From positions 1 to 64,000 of the forward strand of contig CABVRW010000005.1 of NCBI GenBank assembly GCA_902500785.1: a stretch of DNA of 64,000 bases. The letters are read 5' to 3'. The notes under the pieces are model-generated. The model made no database searches. It saw only the letters and a program-made list of their open reading frames with translations, and was not told the origin of the DNA. The stretch is from an uncultured Nitrospira sp. (GTDB taxonomy: Bacteria > Nitrospirota > Nitrospiria > Nitrospirales > Nitrospiraceae). This document shows, piece after piece, positions 13,046 to 20,274 of the stretch (its first letter is position 1; the number at the start of each line of letters is the position of its first letter). The translations under genes were made by a program, and so were the position numbers.

Positions 13046-13456
13046 TCACGCGTGTTCGTGGCCCGTCCAGCCGCCGACCTTGAAATTGATCGTGCAGACA
13101 AAATTATCGCCGTCATAGAAATTCACTTTGATCTTCTTTTTCCCGTAATGTGCCCCGAGAAAATCTTCGGGCGCCTCAACCAATCCCTGGTACCCACCCG
13201 CAGGGTACTCACCCAGTTCGTGAAACACCACGATCATGCCGGCTTTGACTTCCTGCAAAATTTTGGCGGTACACCGTGGATAAATTTCCCAAAATTTGGC
13301 GTCGATCTCTTCTCGCGTCGGTTCCGGTCGATCCTCGCCCGGTTTGGTGTTCCGATTGGCGAACTTGGCCTGGCGTCGCACATAGGGATATTGATGGCCG
13401 GTAAATAGCTTGTAGAGCCAAGGTGGCACAGTCGGTCGTGGTGGCTGCTCAATCAT
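13046..13456 (-). CDS. Conserved-looking protein of unknown function downstream of norD
   Basis: A 136 aa soluble protein with no signal peptide or membrane segment and no motif I recognise. It is rich in aromatic and charged residues (PWLYKLFTGHQYPYVRR near the start, KKKIKVNFYDGDNF near the end), and the C-terminal half looks like a small beta-rich domain. Start: ATG at 13456 with GGAG 9 nt upstream, preferred over an in-frame TTG at 13480. It lies 43 nt after the norD-like stop on the same strand, so it is probably the next gene of that transcript and may be an accessory of the NorQ/NorD system. Confidence 0.7.
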   Translation of the reverse strand: MIEQPPRPTVPPWLYKLFTGHQYPYVRRQAKFANRNTKPGEDRPEPTREEIDAKFWEIYPRCTAKILQEVKAGMIVVFHELGEYPAGGYQGLVEAPEDFLGAHYGKKKIKVNFYDGDNFVCTINFKVGGWTGHEHA

Positions 13457-13499
13457 CGTTGATATGCTCCAATGCTGCAAAGGCCTCGTGCACGACCAT

Positions 13500-16400
13500 T
13501 CAGGCCGTCAGCCGATGGTAAATCCTCGGGAGCTTCTCCGGCAACCCCTCCACACGATCAATTACCACATAGCGCACGTCTCCATACATCCGACGCAGAT
13601 AGGGGTCGGCCTGCTTGTCGATCGTAATACAGACCGGTTCGATGCCGCTGGCGCGGGCTTCCCGCAAAGCCATGCGCGTATCTTCCAGTGAGTAGTCGTC
13701 CTTGTACCCGTCGTCCAACGGACGGCCGTCGCTGATGACCACCAGAATCCGCGTCTTCGCTCGGCGAGCGAGCAGCTTGCTCGTCGCATGTCGGATGGCC
13801 GCGCCATCCCGATTCTGTTGCAGCGGGACGATTCCTCCCAACTTGGCCCCCGCGCGCCCGGTCACGAGTTCATCGAACCCCTTCACGACCACAAAATCCA
13901 CCTGGTGCCGTCCCTGCCCTGAATAGCCATACACGGCAAATTGATCGCCGATCGCCGCAAGCGCTTCACACAGGAGCACTAAACCCTGCTTCTCAATATC
14001 GATAATCCGCCGCCCCTGCTCGACCTGCCGACTGGTCGATCCGCTGAGATCAACCAGAAATGCGGCGGCCACCTCGCGATCCCGTTTTTCACGCCGCACA
14101 TAGATCCGCTCCGACGGCTCGATGCCCGCCGACAAATCAGCCACCCGACCGATCACGGCATCCATATCCAAGTCTTCTCCGTCCAGCTGGCCCGGAATGC
14201 GCCGGAGCCCGGGGGGACGCAGACTCTCGAAGTAGCGACGCAAGAGTCTGACCGTTCCCCGCTGGGCCGCCAAGGTCTCCTCCACAAAGTCCGATGCCCC
14301 TTCAACCGCCTCGCGCTCAACCACGCGGCACCAATGCATCCGATAGTCCTGAATGGCGGCATCCCACTCATGGTAGCGAACCGCCTGGGCCGCCCCGATC
14401 GTCTCGTCATCCGGCCTGACCCCCTCGCCCTCGACGGCCAGGACCTCTTCCACCAGTGAGGGCTGCCGACGGCCGGGCACCAAGACATCTTGCGACAGTT
14501 GCTGCGAGCGCACCGTACCGGCTCCCGCCGATCCACTGGAATCCCCAGCCAAACCCGCACCGGCCTCACTGTCGCCTCGGCCGGACGCCGGAGTCTGTTC
14601 AGGTGAAGATTCAGTACGGTCGCGCACCAAGTTGGGATCCATGGCGCCGCGATAATCCCAATTGTCCATCGGCCGGTACGTGTCGGACAGATCCTCCGAC
14701 GACTTGGGAGCAGGGATCGATTGTTCCGGAGCCTCCGCCTCATCGGGGCTGGGAAGGGCCTCTCGACGAACGGCCAACAGCTCGTCCATACGCACATAGA
14801 GTCGGTCGGCCAGCCGCACCGCCTCCTCGGCTGTCGCCTCCGGAGTGAACATCGCCTGACAGAGCTGCCAGAGTTCATTGACTTCGCGCTGTACGGCGTC
14901 GGGAACCGGTACCGACCCCGCCTCCGCGGTCGAGAGGAGCAGGAGTTGATCGACGACCAGTTCGCGTACCGTCATACCGTGGGCGAGACTTCGGATGGTG
15001 ACGGCATCTTTGGCGACGAGTGCGAGGTCGCGGCTCAGGCCGGGATATTCGGCCCGCAACAAATATTCGACTCGGGCATCCTCCACCAGGGCCCAGAGAT
15101 CGCGAATCAGGCCGGGCTGAGGATAACGCGCAAATACATCTCCCAATGTCCGGGATTTCTGTGACGTGGAGCGTCCATATCGCCGCCCGAGATCCTCAAC
15201 TAGGTCCTGAAGCCTGGCGACGGGTAAGTCGAACGTGCCGAACTCCAGGTGTCCGGCCTCATGCGCGGCCATTACCATATAGAGGCGCACGTTTTCGTCG
15301 TAGGTGGGATACCGCCGGACGATTGAAGGCAATCCGATGCTCCGCCCATCGTCACTCACGGTTGCGCGCGCCATCGGCTGGGCCGATTCGAGCGAGTACG
15401 GCAGGTCGTGAATGCGCAGATCGCGACCGCAGAGCGCTTGAGCGAACAACTTGACGCGCCGGGCGATCTGCCGGAGCGGCACGCCGCTCAGGGCCTGAGA
15501 CACGGCGCCCAAGGCCTTCTCCGTTTCCATGGCAAAGTAGGCTCGTCCCCCGTCCAGACTGTACTCCAGCACCTCCATGCCGGAAGCAAACCAGGAATCG
15601 AACTTCTCCTGCGCCCCTTCACCGGATCCGATCAATGCGATCAATTCAGGACAGCGTCGAATATAGGCCAATGCCGTGTCGGCATCACGTTCAGCGATCA
15701 GCAATCCGTAACGAAGAACTCGCGTCCGCCATTCCTCAGAAGGAAGCCGCCGGAGGATCGCGGGCGCCTCTGCCAGTACCGCGATACCAGCCTCCGGCGA
15801 GCGTTCCGCCATCTGCGCTCCGATACCGATCACCTGGTTGCGGTACCCCTGCCCGGGAATATCCTCCAAAATGGCGGCACTCGTTCGGAAAAATTCCAAT
15901 ACACCCAAATAATCCGGTTTGCCGAGGCTGTTCTCAACGATGAGCTTCATCCCGAACTGCACCCAAGTACGAACCGCATCGAGCGACAAGACGCGAGCGA
16001 TCGAAGGAATCTGCCGGATATATTCCACGGCCAAGGCAAAATCGGTGTCCGCCAGTTCACAGGCCAGATCCATCCAAACGGGCCAATCCGCCGGGGATAA
16101 GACGCCGACGGCCTCCGGCGAAATCCGGATAAATTCCACCGCCACATTGGCCTGTCGGTCTGCGAGCTCCAACGCGGCGTTCAACACAACGGCTCGCGTA
16201 GCGGGATCGAGAAGACCGAGCAGCAACGGACTCTCCTTAAAAAATCTCAACGCCAAGGCGCCTGAATCTGCCGCGATGGCCACCCCAAGGTCGAGCCAAG
16301 GAAGGACCTCGGCCAGCAGGCCTCGACGCTGCATGTCGGCCAACGCATCGATGGCGCCCTTGGCAGCTTTCGGCGCCTCCTCGATCAGCTCGCCCAGCAG

Positions 16401-16535
16401 CACCAGCACACCATCCAGGGTATCCGGCCTGGTGGTTGAATCGGCGATGGCCGTCACCACGACTCGCGCGAGATCAAGGCCCAGTTGGTCGGCCAGCAGG
16501 TCAAGAAGTTGTTCAGATGAGCGCCCAGACGCCAT
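13500..16535 (-). CDS. Giant NorD/CbbO-like VWA protein with helical repeats and a zincin-like motif
   Basis: A 1011 aa protein. NorD/CbbO partners of MoxR-type AAA+ ATPases help activate metalloenzymes (nitric oxide reductase) or Rubisco. The C-terminal VWA domain has a MIDAS motif DLSGS (Asp829), then a conserved Thr/Asp set ending in VISDGRPLD. Residues about 75-330 contain roughly seven degenerate helical repeats of 37 residues, recognisable by a recurring pattern of A-hydrophobic-E/Y-F/Y-I-R followed by P. Between them and the VWA lies HEAGH (425-429), with EDARVE at 485-490, the spacing of a gluzincin metal site. Residues about 590-690 are an acidic, low-complexity linker. NorD proteins are usually about 600-800 aa, so this is long. 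The matching NorQ-type ATPase is at 19312-20151 on the same strand. Confidence 0.85.
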   Translation of the reverse strand: MASGRSSEQLLDLLADQLGLDLARVVVTAIADSTTRPDTLDGVLVLLGELIEEAPKAAKGAIDALADMQRRGLLAEVLPWLDLGVAIAADSGALALRFFKESPLLLGLLDPATRAVVLNAALELADRQANVAVEFIRISPEAVGVLSPADWPVWMDLACELADTDFALAVEYIRQIPSIARVLSLDAVRTWVQFGMKLIVENSLGKPDYLGVLEFFRTSAAILEDIPGQGYRNQVIGIGAQMAERSPEAGIAVLAEAPAILRRLPSEEWRTRVLRYGLLIAERDADTALAYIRRCPELIALIGSGEGAQEKFDSWFASGMEVLEYSLDGGRAYFAMETEKALGAVSQALSGVPLRQIARRVKLFAQALCGRDLRIHDLPYSLESAQPMARATVSDDGRSIGLPSIVRRYPTYDENVRLYMVMAAHEAGHLEFGTFDLPVARLQDLVEDLGRRYGRSTSQKSRTLGDVFARYPQPGLIRDLWALVEDARVEYLLRAEYPGLSRDLALVAKDAVTIRSLAHGMTVRELVVDQLLLLSTAEAGSVPVPDAVQREVNELWQLCQAMFTPEATAEEAVRLADRLYVRMDELLAVRREALPSPDEAEAPEQSIPAPKSSEDLSDTYRPMDNWDYRGAMDPNLVRDRTESSPEQTPASGRGDSEAGAGLAGDSSGSAGAGTVRSQQLSQDVLVPGRRQPSLVEEVLAVEGEGVRPDDETIGAAQAVRYHEWDAAIQDYRMHWCRVVEREAVEGASDFVEETLAAQRGTVRLLRRYFESLRPPGLRRIPGQLDGEDLDMDAVIGRVADLSAGIEPSERIYVRREKRDREVAAAFLVDLSGSTSRQVEQGRRIIDIEKQGLVLLCEALAAIGDQFAVYGYSGQGRHQVDFVVVKGFDELVTGRAGAKLGGIVPLQQNRDGAAIRHATSKLLARRAKTRILVVISDGRPLDDGYKDDYSLEDTRMALREARASGIEPVCITIDKQADPYLRRMYGDVRYVVIDRVEGLPEKLPRIYHRLTA

Positions 16536-16673: not shown

Positions 16674-17120
16674 ATGGCTGAACCGAGTAAAGCGAGTCTC
16701 GACAAAATGTGGAAGTATGTGAAGGGCTTCGCCGAGAAGAGCGGGACAGCCATGCACCCGAATGAGGCCGTCACGAATGCGGTGGTACTCGGCCTCGCGG
16801 CCCACGTCGACGAGTTGGGCAAACCGTTATGCCCCTGCAACTTTTACCCTGACAAGCAGGCTGAAGCCAAGCTCCGGCGATGGATGTGCGCCTGCGACGA
16901 GATGCAGATCTACAAATATTGCCACTGCCTGCTCTTCGTCCGTGAGGACGGCATGCCGATTACCGAATATCTACCGGAAGACCATGAAGGCCGCCAGTGT
17001 TATGGCCTCATCACCGATCCGACTCCGGAAAAAGGTCGGGCGCTCCGGCACAAAGCGCTGCCCATGGCGCCGAAAGAAGCCGTTCCACCGACCGACGCGG
17101 ATCCCCCCACGCAGCCGTGA
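16674..17120 (+). CDS. Ferredoxin:thioredoxin reductase catalytic subunit-like protein
   Basis: A 148 aa protein of the FTR beta family, which uses a [4Fe-4S] cluster beside a redox disulfide to pass electrons from ferredoxin to thioredoxin. The cysteine pattern is C53-P-C55, 16 residues, C72-A-C74, 8 residues, C83-H-C85. This matches the family spacing exactly, with Ala replacing Pro in the middle motif. All cluster and disulfide cysteines are kept. No variable (alpha) subunit is nearby. The last 25 residues are a Pro-rich tail. Its stop overlaps the GTG start of the peptidase gene (GTGA), so the two are translationally coupled. The gene is divergent from norD across an inverted repeat. Confidence 0.9.
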   Translation: MAEPSKASLDKMWKYVKGFAEKSGTAMHPNEAVTNAVVLGLAAHVDELGKPLCPCNFYPDKQAEAKLRRWMCACDEMQIYKYCHCLLFVREDGMPITEYLPEDHEGRQCYGLITDPTPEKGRALRHKALPMAPKEAVPPTDADPPTQP

Positions 17121-19311: not shown

Positions 19312-20151
19312 TCAGAAGATCGCCTTCACGACTTCGATGATGCTGCGCAACATGTCCGGGTCATCGGTGATCGGACGGGCGATGGCGACGTCACAGGCTC
19401 GATCGGCCGGCACGCCTTGCTTGATCAACGTCGCCGCATAGATCAGGAGTCTGGTGCTCACGCCTTCTTCCAGTCCATGATTCTTGAGATTGCGAACTTT
19501 CTCGGCGATCTTGACGAGTCGCTGCGCGATCTCGGGGCTCACGCCGGCTTCCTGCGCCACGACCCGGCTCTCGATGTCCGGCGAGGGGTAGTCGAATTCG
19601 ATCGCCATGAACCGCTGCTTGGTGCTCTGCTTGAGATCTTTGAGGATACTTTGGTATCCGGGGTTGTAGGAAATCACCAGCATGAAGTCATCGACCGCTT
19701 CAATCACCTGCCCCTTTTTCTCGATCGGCAGCAGGCGCCGGTCATCACTCAAGGGATGGATAATGACGGTGGTGTCTTTTCTCGCCTCGACGATCTCGTC
19801 CAGGTAGACGATGGCCCCCTGCTTGACTCCGAGGGTCAGCGGCCCGTCCATCCAAACCGTCTCCTGCCCCTTTAAGAGGTACCGGCCGACGAGGTCGGAG
19901 GCGGTGAGATCTTCGTGGCACGCGACGGTAATGAGGGGGCGACCCAGGCGATAGGCCATGTGCTGGACGAACCGCGTTTTCCCACAACCTGTCGGCCCCT
20001 TCAGCATCACCGGCATGCGGCGCTGCGCCGCGATCGTAAAGAGCCCGACCTCGCCCCGCACTTCGGCATAAAACGGCTCACGCGCGATTCGGTATCGATC
20101 GATCTCTTGTTCCTGCCCTTTCGGCGCCGAAGCCGCTCGCCCCTCGTTCAT
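19312..20151 (-). CDS. NorQ/CbbQ/NirQ-type AAA+ ATPase
   Basis: A 279 aa MoxR-related ATPase that forms hexamers and remodels target enzymes with a VWA partner. Walker A is GPTGCGKT (Lys58), Walker B VYLDEI (Asp118, Glu119), followed by [12 protein letters not shown] and the C-terminal CbbQ_C-type helical domain. Start: ATG at 20151. The longer frame to 20196 adds residues not typical of the family. The partner NorD-like gene is on the same strand 3 kb downstream, separated by two same-strand genes and two opposite-strand genes. No nitric oxide reductase or Rubisco gene is in the window, so the client is unknown. Confidence 0.92.
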
Positions 20152-20274
20152 TCCGACACCCCTACATTGAATTGAATAACGTGCATGGTGCGCCACGATA
20201 AACGGAAACGAGCCGGAAGTTCAAGCGGCAGGCTGGAGACGAACAACCGCCATCGCCGTTGCGAGAGACATCTC

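Follow-up and report, generated by a model that had tools for sequence, protein, structure and literature searches.

A giant NorD-like protein of Nitrospira with a putative zinc-hydrolase head related to phage CobT-like proteins

The stretch of DNA analysed here (64,000 nucleotides, positions 1 to 64,000 of contig CABVRW010000005.1 of the uncultured Nitrospira sp. assembly GCA_902500785.1; hereafter the window) encodes a giant NorD-like protein of 1011 amino acids (aa), which is probably part of a NorQ-driven NorD-like machine with a putative zinc-hydrolase head. According to our favoured explanation, the protein would be a NorD-family cofactor of a MoxR ATPase, and its N-domain would be a member of a zincin-like family in which the HExxH motif is intact. 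Taken together with the mechanism outlined below, we consider this reading to be evenly poised. It draws on the homology of the N-domain to phage CobT-like proteins and to proteobacterial NorD, on the conservation of the motif in the relatives of the protein and on the presence of a NorQ gene close by. The parts of the gene are as follows (pLDDT, predicted local distance difference test; MIDAS, metal ion-dependent adhesion site):

13500..16535, minus strand: giant NorD-like gene, 1011 aa; an open reading frame with a single match in its own genome
15630..16535, minus strand: N-terminal helical repeat arm, residues 1-302; 37-residue period and modelled helix pairs
14721..15629, minus strand: HExxH-bearing N-domain, residues 303-605; aligned by hhalign to phage CobT and proteobacterial NorD N-domains
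15249..15263, minus strand: HEAGH, residues 425-429; HExxH in 67/82 relatives
15066..15083, minus strand: EDARVE, residues 485-490, candidate third ligand and second shell; acidic 485/486/490 in 67/67 intact rows
14388..14720, minus strand: low-complexity linker, residues 606-716; pLDDT mostly <40, in the place of the NorD linker
13503..14387, minus strand: NorD-type VWA domain, residues 717-1011; phmmer to 9qhd_G 2.3e-48, Foldseek top six rows NorD
14037..14051, minus strand: DLSGS MIDAS motif, residues 829-833; D829, S831 and S833 invariant in 82/82

The N-domain is shared with phage CobT-like proteins and NorD

When 35 N-domains of the phylum were compared by hhalign with eight phage N-domains (CobT-annotated or otherwise), a probability of 97.8 and an E-value of 6.6e-13 were obtained over 192 columns, and the alignment placed HEAGH on HEVAH and EDARVE on EDTMIE. 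A repeat of the comparison gave 6e-12, or 2e-11 with intact proteins only; the column-shuffled phage controls stayed at E 0.26-0.83 in five of five cases. The score does not depend on the motif alone, because the proteins that have lost it still match the phage N-domains (9.5e-8). Moreover, five proteobacterial NorD proteins from norCBQD-type operons match the Nitrospirota domain with 2.4e-8 after removal of two norCBQD rows from the query, and in this alignment HEAGH falls on a run lacking the motif. The match rises to 3e-14 when the two norCBQD-type NorD proteins of the phylum join the target, and all five shuffled NorD controls gave E 0.31 or worse. The domain profile also reaches the solved NorD N-domain (2.1e-5) and solved CobT chains (0.0027 and 0.016), and the full-length profile reaches a CobT chain with 1.9e-7 over a stretch that includes the acidic linker. 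Using a profile of bacterial intact proteins only, NorD (0.011) and CobT (0.072) occupied the first rows. The Pfam family CobT is matched by six of the eight phage N-domains, with 1.3e-21 as the best value. By profile comparison, the N-domains of NorD and of phage CobT-like proteins are one family, to which bacterial CobT very probably belongs as well.

Among nine phage CobT-like proteins, seven carry HExxH (L086, L087, L089, L090, L091, L093 and L095) and two do not (L092 and L094). A tenth viral protein, L088 of HHTV-2, is a split VWA half, and that gene encodes no N-domain. Scans of viral contigs by tblastn found no relative. In a mixed alignment of bacterial and phage proteins, only the H, E and H of the motif, Glu485 and Gly499 are invariant; its 18 rows were chosen for an intact motif, and the invariant columns are partly due to this choice. 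Four of the alignments used are hand-picked subsets, two of which were selected for intact motifs. The presence of the intact HExxH form in both phages and Nitrospirota suggests that it is likely the ancestor of the N-domain family.

Conservation of the motif among relatives

Conservation was assessed in 82 aligned rows, near-duplicates among them: the window protein and its relatives from 81 loci. Two loci had been removed beforehand, L001 because it coincides with the window and L015 because its gene is spread over three frames. The 82 genomes with a match yielded loci in 61 cases (30 automatic, 31 fetched), and 21 were not fetched. The named motif positions were scored in all 82 rows and the wide column scan was made with 19 hand-picked intact rows. 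HExxH is intact in 67 rows and lost in 15. At 90% identity, the intact rows reduce to 49 representatives and the lost rows to 15; proteins that still have one His (the first in six, the second in two) were counted as lost. Every row fetched from the window's family and from the second family of the same order keeps the motif, which persists down to 21% identity of the domain. Both His residues occur together in 67/82 rows, Glu426 is present in all 67 and never occurs without both His, as is expected of catalysis rather than of metal storage.

The preliminary description of this DNA, made from the sequence alone, had placed EDARVE 60 residues behind HEAGH, which is correct, and had named loss of the motif in close homologues as a result that would speak against it. 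Such a loss did not occur, as HExxH and the acidic residues at 485, 486 and 490 are strictly conserved in the near homologues. Of its candidates for the third ligand, Glu485 and Glu490, Glu485 is invariant in the 67 intact rows, but it is also kept in 14 of the 15 lost ones, and position 490 is Glu or Asp in 67/67 intact and 12/15 lost rows. The position that is lost together with HExxH is 486, which had not been named; it is Asp or Glu in all 67 intact rows and Asn, Gly, Ala or Ser in all 15 lost ones.

On a tree of the C-terminal 300 residues (47 rows, motif columns unused), the HExxH state has to change three times, and well-supported branches demand at least two of these changes. The loss in the group that comprises L058-L061 and L069 is nested inside an otherwise intact class-level clade. 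An actinobacterial NorQ-NorD pair was seen on a Miltoncostaea oceani plasmid (L084, 7344-10225), where HGAGR replaces HExxH and the NorD stretch is annotated as two genes.

Arm, linker and VWA domain

The coordinates given for the 1011-aa protein in the preliminary description are exact, and the gene lies on the minus strand. It is single-copy in its own 3.9-Mb assembly, and close copies exist in Nitrospira records, among them Candidatus Nitrospira defluvii. The helical repeats of 37 residues that had been described for the N-terminus are borne out by the self-similarity of the column profiles of residues 70-340, which is highest at 37 residues (z 7.5 against 300 permutations; lags 118, 74 and 38 also stand out), and by the AlphaFold model, which consists of helix pairs with block-mean pLDDT of 70-94 as far as residue 300. 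The whole-protein model, when searched with Foldseek and VIA-align, matched mainly through its VWA part. The arm is absent (arm length 0) in the two norCBQD-type NorD proteins of the phylum. The disordered linker does have the acidic excess ascribed to it, though only a mild one (25 D/E vs 11 K/R in residues 591-716).

The assignment as NorQ/NorD-type protein stands. The VWA domain (Pfam VWA 8.8e-7) has its nearest solved relatives in the NorD chains of the cryo-electron microscopy study of NorQD (phmmer 2.3e-48 and 4.9e-44), and NorD chains fill rows 1-6 of the Foldseek search with the whole-protein model. The protein also matches CobT_C (3.3e-6). The MIDAS is complete only in part: all 82 rows share the DxSxS residues and Asp936, but the position that we take to be that of the MIDAS Thr is Asn908, so that the canonical DxSxS-T-D pattern is absent from the window protein. 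Of the 82 rows, 69 have Asn here and 13 have Thr. The norCBQD-type NorD proteins are among the 13, and by eye some phage CobT proteins have N here.

Genomic context and the search for a client

Two neighbouring genes may belong to the same system:

19312..20196, minus strand: NorQ/CbbQ-type MoxR AAA+ ATPase, presumed motor partner; CbbQ_C 4e-34, AAA_5 4.4e-33
13046..13480, minus strand: hyp144, small conserved protein directly downstream, possible third component; homologues in 66/83 loci

The NorQ gene lies 2.8 kb upstream of the giant gene on the same strand and is the only CbbQ_C match in the window's genome. In most deeper lineages, NorQ is directly upstream of the NorD-like gene. In the window's genus, it is found 2.8 kb upstream on the same strand (16 of 22 loci have it within the fetched stretch), and it was present in 13/13 further genomes tested, elsewhere in the genome where not close. 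The 144-aa protein hyp144 matches no Pfam family. NorQ-NorD-hyp144 triads, with hyp144 as the next gene downstream (gap of about 570 bases in L059), are found in L057-L061, and hyp144 could possibly be a third component or a substrate.

The denitrifier homologues serve the cytochrome c-dependent nitric oxide reductase (cNOR). Two loci with the lost form, L075 and L076, are norCBQD operons; the former was read by eye from translations, and the latter was assigned because it resembles L075 and has a COX1-family match roughly 1 kb away from its NorQ. In the window's genome (99.6% complete), no match to the COX1 family PF00115 was found at E 1e-3, while the same search was positive in 8/14 controls. 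At 1e-5, hand counts gave PF00115 in 3/12 sampled genomes of the genus and in 21/46 genomes of the family, in which the NorD-like gene is present in 46/46. Thus, the client is neither cNOR nor another heme-copper oxidase visible to the search, and for this reason we call the protein NorD-like and not a nitric oxide reductase maturase. As regards a CbbO-like role in rubisco activation, the single RuBisCO-family match in the genome is weak (64.5 bits) and lies on another contig. The conserved neighbours, mdh, a Urate_ox_N-type protein and a NuoF-type protein, give no client. An anti-phage defence role was considered as well, but PADLOC has no match for the giant protein and only weak AAA+ matches for NorQ. 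A hint at a metal-cofactor client comes from the intact-form loci L062 and L067, in which the NorQ-NorD pair lies beside carbon monoxide dehydrogenase and corrinoid proteins (assigned by Pfam in L062 and by eye in L067). L062 (4985-15469) also holds a RACo-type activator and a CobW/HypB-type GTPase. As a side observation, a ferredoxin-thioredoxin reductase beta-type protein is encoded at 16674-17120 on the plus strand, divergent from the giant gene, which it adjoins in the fetched loci of the family.

Proposed mechanism and alternative explanations

Under the favoured explanation, the NorQ hexamer would hold the VWA domain at the C-terminus in the way seen in published structures of NorQD, and the helical arm would recruit the client. 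His425, His429 and either Glu485 or Asp486 may together coordinate a single ion of zinc or a similar metal, and Glu426 would act as the general base. ATP cycles of NorQ would then pull the linker, which would open the client or present it to the site; as carried over from the NorQD structures, motor action would shift the zincin-like head with its arm against the VWA domain. A segment of the client could thereby be clipped or hydrolytically edited during maturation of a metalloenzyme. The signature expected of zincins, HExxH with a downstream acidic third ligand, is present in the conserved motifs, which offer several acidic candidates. Moreover, the PHROG profile phrog_459 ('peptidase') is matched by 15 of the 35 domain members (best 7.1e-5), and the layout of the phage metallopeptidase-VWA proteins of PHROG 459, with an N-domain bearing HExxH and EDxxxE, a linker and a VWA domain, recurs in the window protein, whose own PHROG score is weak (0.124). 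A profile combining bacterial and phage proteins had MJ1213, a minigluzincin, in its first three rows against the PDB, the alignment spanning a strand and a helix, with E 0.017-0.039, below significance.

Several observations weigh against this explanation. The MJ1213 match reaches only 0.017 and drops to 0.82, lower down the list, with bacterial proteins alone. No zincin family was found at significance, as no Pfam peptidase appeared among the domain members and an M48 alignment used as a zincin yardstick gave no match. The phrog_459 matches of individual proteins cover mainly the ED helix and not HExxH. Two AlphaFold models, one for the whole protein (mean pLDDT 59.1) and one for residues 303-605 (60.3), were made from input sequences too similar to one another (21 and 22), and in both the pLDDT is below 50 around HExxH. 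There is no direct profile match between proteobacterial NorD N-domains alone and phage N-domains, the link running via the Nitrospirota proteins. The coupling of HExxH and ED is not strict, since EDxxxE persists without HExxH in phage ANB28 (L094), and phage ICP2 (L087), which has HExxH, carries VD instead of ED. Only three state changes on the tree mean that independent events are few. NorD and CobT, relatives known to insert metals, have the motif only in part or not at all, which indicates that the motif is not needed for metal insertion. Finally, PMC8651126 calls the peptidase label of a cyanophage CobT mistaken.

Searches with the low-confidence domain model gave nothing over threshold against the PDB by Foldseek and VIA-align; one VIA-align row with Z 5.2 is a transcriptional regulator, and four weak Foldseek rows are selecases. 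Against viral models, the first nine Foldseek rows had E 0.0076-0.13, none below 0.001. Five of these are named VWA/CobT proteins, three are unnamed and one is a HHTV-2 protein, whose length of 355 fits the gene next to the HHTV-2 VWA gene.

Four alternatives have to be set against the proposed hydrolase. Aerobic cobaltochelatase CobST, in which the MoxR-type CobS is the partner of CobT, inserts cobalt. In PMC13036017, NorQD is described as inserting iron, and the site could likewise bind a metal without hydrolysis, holding the ion or handing it over for insertion into the client by NorQD. The CobW/HypB-type GTPase and the carbon monoxide dehydrogenase/corrinoid cluster of L062 fit this idea, which we nonetheless consider unlikely, though it deserves the most attention of the four: NorD serves metal insertion without the motif, solved CobT has Gln at the position equivalent to 486, and Glu426, needless for storage, is present in all 67 proteins with both His. 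It is less probable still that the protein is a pseudoenzyme in which HExxH and EDxxxE persist as structural relics, the domain serving solely for docking as it does in denitrifier NorD. Repeated loss of the motif from proteins that retain the domain and the VWA/NorQ context would fit this, and so would the docking of the NorD N-domain on NorQ in the cryo-electron microscopy structures (PMC13036017); yet drift would not leave H, E and H invariant over the 49 representatives, nor HExxH in seven of the nine phage proteins.

The view that this organism uses the protein as its ordinary NorD, for maturation of nitric oxide reductase, would agree with a VWA domain closest to NorD and a NorQ gene nearby, but we regard it as very improbable in view of the PF00115 counts in the genome, the controls and the family. 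A chance occurrence of the motif without meaning can practically be dismissed. HExxH is short, but it is expected only 0.006 times by the composition of the protein and was observed once; its retention in 67/82 rows, down to distant relatives, already refutes chance, and it aligns with the same motif in phages.

Relation to known systems and possible origin

The denitrifier NorQ/NorD systems of Paracoccus denitrificans and Jhaorihella thermophila (PDB 9qh6-9qhg) have the VWA domain, the linker, a homologous N-domain and the NorQ partner in common with the window protein. According to PMC13036017, the NorD VWA finger sits in the NorQ pore and the linker spans differ between states. Unlike the window protein, denitrifier NorD has no HExxH (0/5 proteobacterial and 0/2 norCBQD-type proteins of the phylum) and no helical arm; the norCBQD-type rows have a Thr-type MIDAS in place of Asn908. 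In solved CobT (PDB 9uka, 21vu), the N-domain helix reads E-Q-A-R-V-E instead of E-D-A-R-V-E, and the window protein is far below the CobT NCBIfam equivalog cut-off (24.8 of 759 bits). MJ1213/selecase has a strand, a helix and HExxH aligned with those of the domain in the comparison mentioned above, which stays below significance, but is a stand-alone protein of 110 aa. The DUF2201_N-VWA proteins (L096 and L097) combine a putative metallopeptidase domain carrying HExxH with a VWA-like domain, as here, but no EDxxxE was found in these two proteins. The family PF13203 (DUF2201_N) itself has no match in the window's genome or among the domain members.

PMC9976466 describes the N-terminal domains of NorD and CbbO as unrelated and those of MoxR-associated VWA proteins as not conserved, and neither 'zinc' nor 'HEXXH' is mentioned in the accessible NorQD descriptions of PMC13036017 and PMC9976466. 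A literature search, with subscription journals mostly outside it, returned no paper on a zincin-like domain in NorD. However, the 'new type' of machine announced in the preliminary description does not hold, as the metallopeptidase-VWA-MoxR architecture is not wholly new: PMC7824862 reports a jumbo-phage MoxR-vWA pair whose vWA protein carries an N-terminal metallopeptidase domain, and the arrangement recurs in phage 'CobT'. The window protein is a cellular NorD-type member with an intact metallopeptidase-like site, and its relatives suggest an origin for the NorD N-domain.

On the favoured explanation, denitrifier NorD would be a chaperone that has retained the domain as such but not its chemistry, and the same probably applies to bacterial CobT. 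The comparison suggests that NorD-type chaperones descend from a motor-driven metalloprotease-like ancestor. More tentatively, and with considerable doubt, NorD and CobT chaperones may both descend from an AAA+-coupled metallopeptidase; Nitrospira and relatives would then run an ancestral NorQ-powered, arm-bearing zinc peptidase that processes a metalloenzyme or hyp144 during assembly, and denitrifier NorD would be its pseudoenzyme descendant. Placing the N-domains of NorD and phage CobT in one family with a zinc-peptidase-like signature provides a hypothesis for their fold and evolutionary origin, and it bears on the view, printed in PMC8651126, that phage CobT was 'mistakenly' called a peptidase. 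Furthermore, the conserved NorQ-NorD machine of a nitrite oxidiser without detectable nitric oxide reductase points to some other client, and the family placement makes a simple test possible, i.e. zinc binding or cutting by a motif-intact NorD-like protein.

The phage CobT-like proteins of PHROG 459 resemble the window protein in HExxH, mostly EDxxxE, the acidic linker, the VWA domain and a nearby gene for an AAA+ partner (MoxR/CobS). They differ in that those examined have no helical arm and are located in phage genomes, and the spacing of HExxH and ED is 29 in the RHEph10 phage protein and 60 in the window protein. At least 995 plasmid records from Klebsiella, Escherichia, Acinetobacter and others match the RHEph10 CobT-like protein and perhaps represent phage-plasmids. 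Many of these matches are labelled porphyrin/cobalamin biosynthesis, although the phage examples mostly carry HExxH.

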